From: an uncultured Eubacteriales bacterium
GTDB lineage: Bacteria > Bacillota > Clostridia > Christensenellales > Christensenellaceae
DNA length: 12,954 bases
Assembly (NCBI GenBank): GCA_902782475.1
Contig: CACZNR010000146.1
Coordinates: 1 to 12,954 of the forward strand
Direction of reading: 5' to 3'
Shown here: piece by piece, positions 2,847-9,822 of the stretch
Numbering within the stretch: position 1 is the first letter of the stretch
Layout: each line of letters starts with the position of its first letter
Translations under genes and position numbers: made by a program
Notes under the pieces: generated by a model
Told to the model about the DNA's origin: nothing
The model's input: the letters and a program-made list of their open reading frames with translations, nothing else
Database searches by the model: none

Positions 2847-3287
2847 ATGAAAGTTATTTTGCTTCAGGATGTTAAAGGACAGGGAAAAAAGGGAGAGATA
2901 GTCAATGTAAGTGATGGTTATGCCAGGAATTTCCTTTTCCCGAGGAATATGGCAGAGGAAGCCAATGCCCAGAACCTCAACAATGCACAGGTAAGAAAGG
3001 ATGCTGCAGCACACAGAGTCGTAGTTGAAAGGGAAAAAGCAGCTGAGCTTGCCAAAAAGCTTGAGCAGAACGGCATAGTGATAAAGGGAAATGCCGGATC
3101 AGCAGGAAGACTTTTTGGTTCCATAACAAATACAGAGATATCCCAGGAGCTGGAGAAGCAGACAGGATATCAGATAGACAAGAAGAAGATAGTCCTTCAG
3201 TCACCTATCAAGGAGATCGGAACATATGATGTGACCATAAAGCTGTTTCAGGGGATATCCGCAAACATAAAGGTCACAGTTGAATAA
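2847..3287 (+). CDS. rplI: 50S ribosomal protein bL9
   Basis: A 146-residue protein, close to the usual 147-150 residues for bL9. The N-terminal domain is canonical: [20 protein letters not shown], followed by [13 protein letters not shown], the conserved 23S rRNA-binding region. A long charged connecting helix then leads to a C-terminal domain with the family's GRLFGSIT stretch near residues 86-93. bL9 binds domain V of 23S rRNA at the base of the L1 stalk and helps keep reading frame. A very strong ribosome binding site, AAGGAGGT (2833-2840), overlaps the stop codon of the DUF2232 gene and is well spaced from ATG 2847. dnaB follows after 11 nt, the order common in Firmicutes. Confidence 0.97.
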
Positions 3288-3298
3288 GAGGTAAGACA

Positions 3299-4648
3299 AT
3301 GCCTGAGAGTATCAGAAGGACTCCGCCAGCCAGCATGGAGGCAGAACAGTCAGTCCTTGGAGCGATGCTTCTGGACCAGAACTGTGTACTCATAGCGGTG
3401 GAGAAACTTAAGGAAGAAGATTTTTATTTCAACCAGCATAAGAAGATCTACAATGCCATGTACGATCTTGCTTCAATGAACAAGCCGGTGGATATCGTTA
3501 CTGTGTCTGAAAAGATGGGCGAAGGTGAAGCACTTTCATCGGAAGAGATACTCTATCTTACATCTCTCACCGAATCTGTGCCCAGCCTCAGTAACATTGA
3601 GCACTACATAGACATACTCAAGGAAAAGGCTAAATTAAGAAAGCTTATATCGGTGGCTGCTTCCATAGCAGACATGGGATACACATCTGAAGGCACGGCC
3701 TCACAGATCATAAACATCGCTTCAGATGAGATATACAAGATAGAGAATGCAGCTACTACAAATACCCTGCAGCCCCTTAAGGATGCACTGGTGCTTGGAT
3801 ATCAGAGCATAGCAAAGGCTTCAAATTCCAAGAACGGTCTCATGGGAGTCTCCACAGGATTCAATCTGATGGATAAGAAGCTCTCGGGCCTTCAGCCGTC
3901 ACAGCTCATAGTGGTGGCAGGAAGACCTGGTATGGGCAAGACCAGCTTTGCGCTCAACATAGCGGAACATGTTGCAACGAAGGAAGGAAAGGCTGTTGCC
4001 ATGTTCTCACTTGAGATGAGCAGGGAGCAGCTGGGACTCAGACTTCTGTGTTCCACTTCAGGAGTAAATTCACAGTCGGCGAGGACAGGAGATCTTTCAG
4101 AGGAGGATTTCTATGCCATAGCTGATGCCATGGGCCCTCTTTCAGCCGCACCGATATATATCGACGATACAGCAGTCATAGGACCTACAGAGATAATAGC
4201 AAAGGTAAAGAGACTTCAGAGGACCATCTCCCAGGAGATAGGGCTTGTTATCATAGACTATCTGCAGCTCATGCAGGGCAGCAGTACCTTCAGAAATGAG
4301 AACAGGCAGCAGGAGATCTCGAATATCACCAGGAACCTCAAGGTTGCGGCAAAAGAGATAGGGGTACCGATAATGCTCCTTTCACAGCTGAGCCGTGCTA
4401 CAGAGAAGAGAGAGAACAAGAGACCTATGCTGTCAGACTTAAGGGAGTCCGGTGCAATAGAGCAGGATGCTGACGTGGTACTCTTCCTTCACAGGGAGGA
4501 TTACTATCAGGAAAATACTTCCGGAGAACAGTCACGGAGCCAGATCATAATAGCAAAACAGAGATCAGGACCTACAGGAACCATAGATGTGACCTGGAGA
4601 GGAGATCAGACGAAATATACAGAAACTGATTTCAGAGAAGGAGAATGA
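3299..4648 (+). CDS. dnaB: Replicative DNA helicase DnaB
   Basis: A 449-residue hexameric replicative helicase (called DnaC in B. subtilis) that unwinds DNA ahead of the replication fork and recruits primase. The N-terminal primase-interacting domain begins with PPASMEAEQSVLGAMLLD. The RecA-like motor has a Walker A GRPGMGKT at 208-215, a Walker B LVIIDYLQL at 316-324, the LSQLSR region at 361-366, and RPMLSDLRESGAIEQDADVV with the arginine-finger neighbourhood at 375-394. The full length matches the family and there is no intein in the motor. GAGGT (3288-3292) precedes ATG 3299. Only 11 nt separate it from rplI, and the next gene begins 3 nt after its stop, with that gene's ribosome binding site lying inside the dnaB 3' end. 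Confidence 0.97.
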   Translation: MPESIRRTPPASMEAEQSVLGAMLLDQNCVLIAVEKLKEEDFYFNQHKKIYNAMYDLASMNKPVDIVTVSEKMGEGEALSSEEILYLTSLTESVPSLSNIEHYIDILKEKAKLRKLISVAASIADMGYTSEGTASQIINIASDEIYKIENAATTNTLQPLKDALVLGYQSIAKASNSKNGLMGVSTGFNLMDKKLSGLQPSQLIVVAGRPGMGKTSFALNIAEHVATKEGKAVAMFSLEMSREQLGLRLLCSTSGVNSQSARTGDLSEEDFYAIADAMGPLSAAPIYIDDTAVIGPTEIIAKVKRLQRTISQEIGLVIIDYLQLMQGSSTFRNENRQQEISNITRNLKVAAKEIGVPIMLLSQLSRATEKRENKRPMLSDLRESGAIEQDADVVLFLHREDYYQENTSGEQSRSQIIIAKQRSGPTGTIDVTWRGDQTKYTETDFREGE

Positions 4649-4651
4649 TAC

Positions 4652-6037
4652 TTGAAAACGCTGAAAGTCCCCGGAGATATGGAGGGCATAACCGCCGTCG
4701 ATTTTCTTCGGGAATATTTATATAACAATGAAAAGACACAGATCCTCTTTGAAGAAGGCAAGGTAAGGAAGTCCTCCTTCTTAAAAAAACTCTCACCTGA
4801 TGATGTCCTGCACAGGGATGACAGGATTCGCATATTTGACATAAAGGACGAGGATTTTAATGTAAACGTTGCGGAGATAGTCTATGAAGACGAAGAATTC
4901 ATAGTGTTCAATAAGCCTCAGAACATGGAATCCATAACGAAGGTGGAGAACGGAACGAATCTGCATCTATTTGCTGTGGATCATATGAAGAGGCTTGGGG
5001 AATATGACGTTGACACACTGAGGGTCCCGTATGTCTGCAATGTGCTTCCGAAGGAATTCGGGGGCCTCTCGATAGTTGCAAAGGATCAGTATCTTTTCGA
5101 GGAGCTTATCCGTGCATTCAGGGAGAGAAGGATAAAAAGGCTCTTCAGGGTGATAGTCACAGGTGAACCTAAGGAAGAAGACCTTCTTTACGGGTATATA
5201 CAGTACAGGAACCTTGGAAACAGAGCCAGCATGAATGAGAACATGAACAGGAAGGCCAGGCCGGCAGCTCTTCGGTACAGGCTCCTGGAAACGAAAGGGG
5301 AGCTTTCCCTTCTTGAAGTGGAGCCCCTGTCATTTCTGAAGGACCAGATAGCATCCCAGCTTGCAGGAGCAGGGCTTCCCATACTTGGGGATGAGACTTT
5401 CGGAAGCAGGGAGATGAACCGCAGATATTCTGTGGAGGTGCCTGCGATCTGGGGCAGCAAGCTCGTGTTTGAAACAGGCACGAACAATTATCTTGATTAT
5501 CTTAACGGCAGGGAGATAGAAGTTGTACCATATCACATGAGTGGCATCGGCTATTTCATTGAAAGAAAGGAAATGGTAAGGGATAGAAGAGTGGAAGCTC
5601 TGAATCCAAAACAGCTCAAGAACGCCTCGAGGATAGTCTGGAACAGCTTCAACAAGTCTCTCATAAAGGAGTTTGACAGGGAATTCATTTCAGATTTCAG
5701 AAATGCCAACAGGGCAGTGACGCTGGCAAAGGAAATGGAGACTGGTACTGTCTTCTTTGGATGCTATACAGATTCCGGCATAGCAGGAGTGATATCTGTA
5801 AACGGGAATGGAGAGATAAGAAGGCTCTATGTACTGAGATCCCAGCAGAACAAGGGAGTAGGGGAACTTCTTTTAAGGTATGCTGAGGACTGGTGCTTTG
5901 AGCATCATATAGAGCACACAAGAGTGTTTGCTCCGGGGACTTCATATCTTTATTTCAAGAAAAAGGGATATGTAGAATCGGATGAAATGGCTGACAGACC
6001 GCAGATGACAGTCCTTACAAGGACGAATCTTCAGTAA
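4652..6037 (+). CDS. S4-like / degenerate RluA pseudouridine synthase-like / GNAT acetyltransferase fusion
   Basis: A 461-residue protein with three parts. Residues about 1-65 resemble the S4-type RNA-binding domain that leads RluA enzymes (EGITAVDFLREYL, LFEEGKVRKSSF). Residues about 74-255 follow the RluA fold: IVYEDEEFIVFNKPQ, then CNVLPKEFGGLSIVAKD where active enzymes have HRLDxxTSGLLxxAK, then SFLKDQIASQLAGAGLPILG where they have TGRTHQIRxHLA. The catalytic Asp is replaced by Pro133, and the HRLD and HQIR motifs are lost, so pseudouridine synthase activity is unlikely. Residues about 317-455 resemble a GNAT N-acetyltransferase, with an acetyl-CoA loop RSQQNKGVGELLL (396-408) and a late YLYFKKKGY. 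The start is TTG at 4652, after AGAAGGAG (4636-4643); no better ATG exists nearby. It is the last gene of the rplI-dnaB operon. The substrate is unknown. Confidence 0.82.
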   Translation: MKTLKVPGDMEGITAVDFLREYLYNNEKTQILFEEGKVRKSSFLKKLSPDDVLHRDDRIRIFDIKDEDFNVNVAEIVYEDEEFIVFNKPQNMESITKVENGTNLHLFAVDHMKRLGEYDVDTLRVPYVCNVLPKEFGGLSIVAKDQYLFEELIRAFRERRIKRLFRVIVTGEPKEEDLLYGYIQYRNLGNRASMNENMNRKARPAALRYRLLETKGELSLLEVEPLSFLKDQIASQLAGAGLPILGDETFGSREMNRRYSVEVPAIWGSKLVFETGTNNYLDYLNGREIEVVPYHMSGIGYFIERKEMVRDRRVEALNPKQLKNASRIVWNSFNKSLIKEFDREFISDFRNANRAVTLAKEMETGTVFFGCYTDSGIAGVISVNGNGEIRRLYVLRSQQNKGVGELLLRYAEDWCFEHHIEHTRVFAPGTSYLYFKKKGYVESDEMADRPQMTVLTRTNLQ

Positions 6038-7951: not shown

Positions 7952-8800
7952 ATGTTTATAGTAGATAATCTTGAACAGTACAGGATACTTGATGCAGGAG
8001 ACGGAGACAAGCTCGAGAGCTGGAACGGCATAATAATGTCAAGACCGGATCCCCAGGTCATATGGAACAGGGAACATGAGGGGCTGTGGCATGATGCCAG
8101 TGCAGAATATATCCGCAGCAGCAAGGGCGGCGGAGAATGGAAGATAAGAAGGAAACTGCCCGAGGACTGGATACTCGAAGAGCTTGGGATGAGATTCAAG
8201 GTGAAGCCCACAGGATTCAAGCATATGGGCCTTTTCCCTGAACAGGCATACAACTGGCAGTTCATAATGGAGCATGTCAGGGAAGGTGACTATTTTCTGA
8301 ATCTGTTTGCATATACAGGAGGAGCGTCAGTGGCTGCAGCCAAGGCAGGGGCAAAGGTGACCCATGTCGATGCTTCAAAGGGGATAGTTCAGTGGGCAAA
8401 GGAAAATGCAGAGCTCTCTTCTATACCAGGGGACAGGGTCAGATACATAGTTGATGACTGTCTTAAATTCGTACAGCGTGAGTACAGACGTGGAAGGAAA
8501 TATGAAGCCATCATAATGGATCCTCCAAGCTACGGGAGAGGGGCAAACAAGGAGCTCTGGAAGCTCGAGGATACCATAGAGGAGCTGATCACTGAATGTG
8601 TGAAGATATTGAGCGATGATGCAAGGCTTTTCATACTCAATTCATATACGACGGGCCTGAGCAACATCGTTACAAGGAATCTTCTGCAGAAACACCTTGG
8701 CGGACGCGGAGGCCAGATAGAAGCGGATGACCTGGCGATCCCCATTGAAGATTCAAAACTGTTCCTCCCCTGCGGTGCAACAGCCAGGTGGTATGTATGA
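7952..8800 (+). CDS. RlmI-like class I SAM-dependent rRNA methyltransferase
   Basis: 282 residues related to the COG1092/Methyltrans_SAM group that includes the 23S rRNA cytosine methyltransferase RlmI. The SAM-binding core is clear: NLFAYTGGAS (117-126) as motif I, VTHVDAS (136-142) with the acidic D140 for the SAM ribose, then a motif IV of DPPSYG (190-195), the usual DPPxF/Y catalytic loop of base methyltransferases. It lacks the N-terminal PUA domain of full RlmI and begins with a short beta-rich region instead, so the exact rRNA target is not assigned. The C-terminus KLFLPCGATARWYV is typical of the short Firmicute form. GGAGAAAAGG (7941-7950) precedes ATG 7952. Its stop overlaps the start of the next gene (ATGA), which also encodes an RNA-modification enzyme. 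Confidence 0.82.
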   Translation: MFIVDNLEQYRILDAGDGDKLESWNGIIMSRPDPQVIWNREHEGLWHDASAEYIRSSKGGGEWKIRRKLPEDWILEELGMRFKVKPTGFKHMGLFPEQAYNWQFIMEHVREGDYFLNLFAYTGGASVAAAKAGAKVTHVDASKGIVQWAKENAELSSIPGDRVRYIVDDCLKFVQREYRRGRKYEAIIMDPPSYGRGANKELWKLEDTIEELITECVKILSDDARLFILNSYTTGLSNIVTRNLLQKHLGGRGGQIEADDLAIPIEDSKLFLPCGATARWYV

Positions 8801-9447
8801 TAAATGTCATATACGAAGACAATCATGTGATAGTGGTGGAAAAACCGAGGAACATACCGGTACAGGTAGATTCCTCCGGGGATACAGACCTCATATCCAT
8901 GGTCAGGGAATATATCAGGGAAAAATATGACAAGAAGGGAAATGTATACCTAGGTCTCGTTCACAGGCTTGACAGGCCTGTAGGGGGACTGATGGTATTT
9001 GCCAGGACTTCAAAGGCGGCATCAAGACTTTCCGAAGAGATAAGGAAAGGAAATGTAGAAAAGTATTATACTGCACTGGTGCATGGAGTCCCGAAAAAGC
9101 ATGGAGTCCTGGAGGACTGGCTGCTCAAGGATGAAAGGACGAATACCACAACGGTGGTTCCTGAAGGAACGGCTGGAAGCAAATATGCAAAACTTGAGTA
9201 CGAGGTCACGGATTCGGATGGCAGGGATTCACAAGTGTACATACATCTTTACACGGGAAGATCACATCAGATAAGGGTGCAGTTTGCGTCCCGGGGATAT
9301 CCTCTCATAGGGGATATGAGGTATGGCAGACAGGAAAAAGGCAGGATAGCCCTTTTTGCAAGCGGACTCTCATTTATCCATCCCACTCTGAAGGAAAAAA
9401 TGTCATTCTCTCTTGAACCGGACATGAAACTTACAAAAAATGAATAA
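8797..9447 (+). CDS. RluA-family pseudouridine synthase (short form, no S4 domain)
   Basis: 216 residues from ATG 8797. The RluA fold is intact: INVIYEDNHVIVVEKPRNIP at the N-terminus, VHRLDRPVGGLMVFART (55-71) with the catalytic D59, and YTGRSHQIRVQFASRGYPLI (152-171) ahead of GDMRYG. It should isomerise uridine to pseudouridine in rRNA or tRNA; the target site cannot be told from sequence alone. It starts directly with the catalytic domain, without the S4 domain of RluC or RluD. The frame also offers a GTG at 8788, but AGGTGG (8786-8791) is correctly spaced only for the ATG, which overlaps the methyltransferase stop as ATGA. Translational coupling with the methyltransferase is likely. Its stop codon lies inside a terminator hairpin. 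Confidence 0.9.
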   Translation: MINVIYEDNHVIVVEKPRNIPVQVDSSGDTDLISMVREYIREKYDKKGNVYLGLVHRLDRPVGGLMVFARTSKAASRLSEEIRKGNVEKYYTALVHGVPKKHGVLEDWLLKDERTNTTTVVPEGTAGSKYAKLEYEVTDSDGRDSQVYIHLYTGRSHQIRVQFASRGYPLIGDMRYGRQEKGRIALFASGLSFIHPTLKEKMSFSLEPDMKLTKNE

Positions 9448-9515: not shown

Positions 9516-9588
9516 ATGCGAAAGGAAAATTGAAGCTCACTAGTTGAGCGGGGATCCTCAAAAGAGAATATATAAGGAGGTAATGTTT

Positions 9589-9822
9589 ATGAAAGTTAAG
9601 AACATTAAAGAACCCAAGAAATTTTTCGAAGTTTTAAGCAAGTGCAAAGGTACAATCGAACTGGTTACTTCAGAAGGTGACAGATTGAACCTGAAGTCCA
9701 AACTAAGTCAGTACATAGCTTTGACACAGATGTTTAAAGATGCACAGATCGACGAGATAGAGATCGTTGTTTCTGAGCCGGAAGACATGGGTCTGTTATT
9801 GGATTATCTCGTAAGAGGCTGA
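9589..9822 (+). CDS. Small HPr-like protein lacking the phosphocarrier histidine
   Basis: 77 residues of unknown function. By eye the C-terminal two-thirds resembles HPr of the phosphotransferase system: EGDRLNLKSKLSQYIAL (29-45) against the B. subtilis NGKTVNLKSIMGVMSLG around regulatory Ser46, followed by an IEIVV strand and a final PEDMGLLLDYL helix. Ser37 falls at the Ser46 position. The N-terminal region KEPKKFFEVLSKCKG would match the first HPr helix, but the protein has no His at all, so it cannot carry PTS phosphate. The start is ATG 9589, because AAGGAGG (9574-9580) is 8 nt away; ATG 9583 is only 2 nt from it and 9544 is upstream of it. Codons such as GGT, GTT and ATC are commoner than in its ATA/GGA-rich neighbours, which suggests high expression. 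It is flanked by its own promoter and terminator. The HPr link is inference. Confidence 0.85.
   Translation: MKVKNIKEPKKFFEVLSKCKGTIELVTSEGDRLNLKSKLSQYIALTQMFKDAQIDEIEIVVSEPEDMGLLLDYLVRG

Follow-up and report, generated by a model that had tools for sequence, protein, structure and literature searches.

A degenerate RluA protein fused to a GNAT acetyltransferase in uncultured gut Clostridia suggests a new job for an old RNA-binding fold

Introduction

RNA acetyltransferases of the TmcA, Kre33 and NAT10 type join an RNA helicase body to a GNAT domain, and RluC and RluD, members of the RluA family, are pseudouridine synthases of 23S rRNA. The gene described here, designated X, can be compared with both. 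It lies on a 12,954-nucleotide stretch of contig CACZNR010000146.1 (the window, meaning the whole stretch analyzed) from an uncultured Eubacteriales bacterium, and its product combines a complete RluA fold with a degenerate S4 domain before it and a GNAT domain after it. Like TmcA and NAT10, X couples an RNA-handling body to a GNAT domain, but Pfam finds no helicase domain in it. Relative to RluC and RluD, X has an added C-terminal GNAT domain, and fused proteins of its type have lost both active-site arginines (16 of 16 sequences read) and usually the catalytic Asp (14 of 16).

The effects of such losses on RluA-type enzymes are described in the available portion of PMC3919597: Asp mutants lose activity, replacement of the conserved Tyr by Phe leaves about 3%, RluA with Met or Lys at the base-flip Arg is inactive, and RluB Arg108Ala keeps 0.6%. 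Growth of an E. coli strain that lacks ten rRNA enzymes was restored by RlmB and RlmKL without catalytic activity, but RluC(D144A) helped neither growth nor 50S assembly (PMC11194073, as excerpted).

No RluA-GNAT fusion was found in literature searches, among the matches listed, and the available portions of PMC8316566, PMC7600485 and PMC12672651 contained nothing on dead RluA proteins. The parts of X are known; a protein that combines them and has lost the original chemistry appears to be undescribed so far as these searches reach. Its features suggest that an old RNA-binding fold has been given a new job.

Results

The architecture of X (Table 1) rests on Pfam profiles, predicted structure and fold matches. 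An earlier inspection of the DNA made without database searches (the sequence-only reading) had proposed an S4-like start, an RluA-like middle and a C-terminal GNAT fold, and this domain order stands: the RluA fold is present, and the GNAT domain is recovered by both fold and profile. The S4-like start is borne out in structure, where an S4 fold is found, although profile PF01479 has no match in the window's X or in four other fused proteins scanned singly. The best fold matches include, by entry title, 7bl5 (RluD in a pre-50S particle) and 6yxx and 7aoi (RluD-like chains of trypanosome mitoribosome assembly intermediates). Chains 6yxx_EC, 7aoi_XP and 7am2_BZ resemble X in having an S4 plus RluA body in a pre-ribosome but, as matched, show no GNAT domain. 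By analogy, retention of the S4 and RluA body points to docking.

Five active-site columns were read where X proteins align with outgroups; the reading covered 16 of the 19 fused rows, several of them close relatives of one another (the near-copies P0008, P0010 and P0013 and the fragments P0069 and P0071 were omitted). Neither arginine survives in any fused row: the base-flip column holds Val (13), Leu (2) or Ile (1), and the motif-III column holds Pro (13), Ala (2) or Phe (1). The catalytic Asp column reads Pro in 13 rows, Ser in 1 and Asp in 2, and the Tyr column reads Tyr in 11 and Phe in 5. The window's protein has V131, P133 and A234 at the base-flip Arg, Asp and motif-III Arg sites and F165 at the Tyr site, confirming the losses (HRLD to NVLP, HQIR to DQIA) claimed in the sequence-only reading. 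Universal loss of the Asp in fused proteins is untrue, since both rows that keep it (L008 and P0011) represent one fused species. The His column is Asn in all 16 fused rows, but this was rejected as a sign of loss because most outgroup rows carry Asn as well. In the outgroup and own-paralogue rows, the Asn count is 11 of 17, and base-flip Arg, Asp, Tyr and motif-III Arg are each present in 17 of 17.

The unfused X orthologues (L010 to L019, L021, L024 and L025 in the same family; L020, L022 and L023 in family f103) fall in the same clade as fused X, and several f1 genomes share the rplI-dnaB neighborhood. Unlike fused X, they have no GNAT part and keep both the Asp and the motif-III Arg in 16 of 16 rows. 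Their base-flip column is mixed (Arg in 4, Lys in 7, Pro in 3, Asp and Val in 1 each), and Tyr is present in 5 of 16. As read from these columns, drift from canonical chemistry started before the fusion, because 12 of the 16 unfused rows already have another residue at the base-flip Arg site, and it is the loss of both arginines that marks the fused clade. An intact HRLD motif elsewhere might have signaled isolated decay, but the homologues that have it, L010 and L011, belong to the unfused sister lineage, which favors the sequence-only reading. Judged by its residues, X probably can no longer flip or isomerize uridine.

Two side observations concern the same family of enzymes. The Lys-bearing unfused X proteins of genus g2 may themselves be pseudoenzymes, because the published Arg-to-Lys variants of RluA are inactive. 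Matches to PF00849 number 5 or 6 in three of the five fused genomes and 4 in most genomes of the family; the extra loci (G000:C114 and C60, G008:C17, and G010:C51) could include a replacement synthase. The remaining fused genomes have 4 (G013) and 3 (G009, which is less complete).

The RluA part of X is under strong constraint. Because synonymous sites were saturated, constraint was assessed not from the ratio of nonsynonymous to synonymous substitution (dN/dS) but from the third bases of four-fold degenerate codons at conserved residues in five fused genomes. Agreement at these sites is near chance (0.31 versus 0.26 expected in the RluA part, 0.22 versus 0.24 in the GNAT part), and amino acid identity among the same genomes is 61% in the RluA part, 51% in the linker, 36% in the N terminus and 34% in the GNAT domain, making the dead RluA domain the best conserved of the four regions and the GNAT domain the least. 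Among 11 fused rows, 85 positions of residues 1 to 311 are invariant, 70 of them within residues 75 to 255, and 11 of the 85 carry a residue absent from every unfused X row. These fused-specific residues include S227 at the start of motif III, where 14 of 14 outgroup rows have Thr, and N130, although Asn is the commonest outgroup state there. On this comparison X is a maintained pseudoenzyme, and the view that it is not a product of decay gains support from both the constraint and the losses shared by the fused rows.

For the GNAT domain, the available portion of PMC4964394 gives a P-loop consensus of Gln/Arg-x-x-Gly-x-Gly/Ala and a general-acid Tyr used by 62% of characterized GNATs. The window's loop fits that consensus (Q399-NK-G402-V-G404), and Gly-x-Gly occurs in all 14 fused rows that have this stretch. 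The general-acid Tyr is kept in 6 of the 14 fused rows and in 7 of 7 free-standing relatives aligned. Because this residue is often Phe in fused proteins while 62% of characterized GNATs use Tyr, acetyltransferase activity of X is likely, but not certain, on the residues present. In NCBIfam the fused domain reaches no cut-off; its best matches are weak and point to different families (ArsN2, PaiA), and X scores 14.1 bits against the RimI equivalog TIGR01575, whose cut-off is 86.4.

The tree of RluA parts covers 43 rows (P0003, P0014 to P0016, L011 and P0002 were dropped beforehand); in it, X proteins form one clade (100/99), and the fused ones form a clade (100/100) on a long stem. In a dnaB plus rplI tree of 12 genomes, the fused genomes are again one clade (100/99), with unfused G011 as its sister (100/98). 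G011 does not stand beside the fused rows in the X tree, but that grouping is not rejected (p-AU 0.186). The gene order is rplI-dnaB-GNAT-X in unfused G003, G005, G007, G011 and G017, where the GNAT gene adjoins X or lies 1.5 to 2.3 kb off; it is rplI-dnaB-X in two g4 genomes and rplI-dnaB-X::GNAT in all five fused genomes.

The separate neighboring GNAT gene (GNATa) is present in 11 of 18 genomes, comprising 11 of the 13 unfused and none of the 5 fused, and it lies on the contig of X within about 2.3 kb in 9 of the 11 unfused f1 genomes having it. At E 1e-8 its profile has zero matches in any of the five fused genomes; these genomes are 80 to 97% complete, but their locus is intact and does not have the gene. 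In NCBIfam, GNATa comes closest, below cut-off, to TIGR04045 and PRK10314, the latter an ElaA-like family. Descent of the fused domain from GNATa is unsupported: the two profiles match at E 3.5e-12 over only 71 columns of the GNAT core, and a far better fit is a free GNAT from a different group. Free PF13673 GNATs ending in a DGIRYTPM-like motif (P0070, P0072 to P0077, and copies in G011 and G012 at 157 to 159 bits) match the fused domain over its full length, at E 1.1e-34 across 153 columns; unlike X, they are free-standing, without an RluA part, and have the Tyr. It appears that a fused domain of different origin took the place of the neighboring acetyltransferase gene, on the same branch as the loss of the RluA arginines.

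Searches of 5.8 billion proteins, in which the profile search scored the best 8000 candidates, recovered the same 14 fused-type clusters from a single sequence and from a profile, the latter adding P0071. Twelve clusters, representing 312 member sequences, have both Pfam domains. The GNAT part is broken or cut short, while the pseudo-RluA part reads on, in P0004 (2 members), P0016 (6) and P0071 (1); the first two may be sequence errors. Of 18 whole genomes from the family, seven have a match at 1e-60 (5 fused, 2 unfused), and all seven are from the window's genus, so that the fusion occurs in 5 of 7 genomes of that genus. With at most four candidates scored per genome, 21 of 396 genomes sampled from the order match at 1e-45, the five fused ones all in the window's genus, and 3 of 391 sampled from the class match, of which the window's own is fused and the other two are not. 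A contig scan with a single X protein gave zero relatives, whereas an alignment as query found 20 loci. Four of these are fused, on contigs from metagenome-assembled genomes (MAGs) of Clostridia or Eubacteriales; goat omasum and sheep rectum are the sources of two. On plasmids, 16 records match X, none spanning 80% of the protein, and the five listed match the RluA part. In the three contigs of family f103 that were read, X alone matches among the window genes compared.

Features of the locus are collected in Table 1. Upstream of X, the order of rplI and dnaB is kept. A gene for an S-adenosylmethionine (SAM) methyltransferase adjoins or overlaps the intact RluA gene (together 7952-9447), and this pair shares a 19-kb stretch with X in G003, G005, G008, G010, G013 and G017. 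Between RluA and a long open reading frame (ORF) running off the end of the window, positions 9544-9822 encode a small protein (77 to 92 amino acids [aa], depending on the start codon) without a Pfam or NCBIfam match; its identity is 77% in G003 and 69% in G008, compared with only 52% and 66% for DnaB. Two to four tandem genes of the mannitol dehydrogenase family lie upstream of a DUF2232 gene in G008, G009, G010 and G011; the window has one (223-1440; compared with loci L047 to L050).

Table 1. Features of gene X and of its surroundings in the window
Feature	Position	Strand	Remark
Fused gene X, S4-like + pseudo-RluA + GNAT	4652..6037	+	461 aa, TTG start
Degenerate S4-like N-terminal domain	4652..4849	+	aa 1-66
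Pseudo-RluA domain	4859..5566	+	aa 70-305
Motif II, HRLD to N130-V131-L132-P133	5039..5050	+	Base-flip Arg and catalytic Asp lost
F165	5144..5146	+	At conserved Tyr site
Motif III, HQIR to D231-Q232-I233-A234	5342..5353	+	Motif-III Arg lost
Low-confidence hinge between the two domains	5567..5581	+	aa 306-310; predicted local distance difference test (pLDDT) under 50
GNAT domain	5579..6034	+	aa 310-461
GNAT P-loop Q399-x-x-G402-x-G404	5846..5863	+	Consensus from PMC4964394, as excerpted
F435	5954..5956	+	At usual GNAT general-acid Tyr site
rplI (bL9)	2847..3287	+	Upstream gene, order kept
dnaB	3299..4648	+	Directly upstream of X
Intact RluA paralogue	8797..9447	+	Contrast to X; ORF may start at 8788

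Discussion

We propose that X is a repurposed RluA protein that would dock on rRNA or on a pre-50S particle and acetylate a component there, a tentative reading to which we give a probability of roughly 0.42. It would descend from a pseudouridine synthase gene of the RluC/RluD type that lay in the rplI-dnaB neighborhood. In the ancestor of one sub-clade of the window's genus, both active-site arginines would have been lost, and in most members the catalytic Asp as well, while strong selection would have kept the S4 and RluA body as a module that docks on its former partner, with 23S rRNA or a pre-50S particle the likeliest candidates. A GNAT domain, whose free-standing counterparts persist in sister species, would have been joined through a short hinge in the same lineage in which the separate GNAT gene beside X is missing. 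So placed, it could acetylate an amine at the docking site, with a ribosomal or assembly-factor protein the most likely target and RNA a less likely one. A bolder form, doubtful at present, makes the dead synthase an address module whose emptied uridine pocket would read a modified base or an RNA loop, where the GNAT domain would then acetylate.

Several findings weigh against this proposal, and three of them (the low net charge of the pseudo-RluA domain, the weak conservation of the GNAT domain and the Phe at its usual Tyr site) also speak against the simple RNA-guided acetyltransferase suggested in the sequence-only reading. The GNAT domain is just 34% identical among the five fused genomes, Phe stands in for its usual Tyr in 8 of 14 fused rows (F435 of the window included), the P-loop of G010 has Phe at the Gln/Arg site, and clusters P0004 and P0016 combine a truncated GNAT with an intact pseudo-RluA part. 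The pseudo-RluA domain is not basic: its net charge is -9 to +3 in 11 fused rows, below most outgroup rows (-2 to +8 in 14 rows; unfused X, -9 to +7 in 16 rows). RluC(D144A) failed to rescue, so losing its activity does not by itself make a synthase an assembly factor. In addition, the fusion is a single event, leaving the joint loss and gain unreplicated; the neighboring GNAT is missing also from unfused G014 and G015; and weaker free matches (35 to 37 bits) to the fused domain occur in fused genomes G000, G008 and G009, so that its donor is not pinned down.

Some of these points are what one would expect from the main rival, which is possible though on balance unlikely: X would act without catalysis, as a factor for ribosome assembly or as an RNA chaperone; its pseudo-RluA part would do the work, and the GNAT domain would be accessory or on its way out. 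The far better conservation of the pseudo-RluA body, the replaced GNAT Tyr, the truncated clusters and a drift of the base-flip Arg that predates the fusion all suit such a role, as do the fold matches to RluD in the pre-50S particle and to the mitoribosome intermediates, and the rescue of E. coli by inactive RlmB and RlmKL. Against it stand the unbroken retention of the P-loop Gly-x-Gly and the absence of the neighboring GNAT from all five fused genomes, which suggests that X carries an acetyltransferase function; and RluC(D144A), the inactive synthase, gave no rescue (PMC11194073, as excerpted).

It is improbable that the GNAT domain acts on a small molecule or on protein lysines in general, with the pseudo-RluA part only stabilizing or regulating it. 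The weak and mixed family matches of the domain and the low net charge of the RluA part are compatible with this, but it leaves unexplained why the RluA body is the most constrained region and why an RNA enzyme with a dead active site was retained at all. Far less probable still is that X remains a pseudouridine synthase with unusual chemistry; one fused species keeps the Asp and 11 of 16 rows keep the Tyr, but both arginines are gone from every row, and base-flip Arg mutants are inactive or nearly so in the portion of PMC3919597 available. A decaying pseudogene or an assembly chimera, which a MAG contig and truncated GNAT copies might suggest, is contradicted by 312 members in 12 two-domain clusters, by five separate assemblies with the same gene order and by the strong constraint.

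If the address-module form of our docking proposal is true, X would represent a new class of RNA- or ribosome-targeted acetyltransferase, the successor to a neighboring free GNAT. The reach of the finding is limited so far to one genus of uncultured gut bacteria known from sequence. Within it, the locus offers a stepwise case in which an RNA-modifying enzyme became a pseudoenzyme and acquired a second catalytic domain at the same locus, with unfused sisters as built-in controls. Should the RNA docking be real, pseudouridine synthase bodies can be targeting modules, which would bear on the long-standing question of what roles RNA-modifying enzymes have beyond their chemistry.
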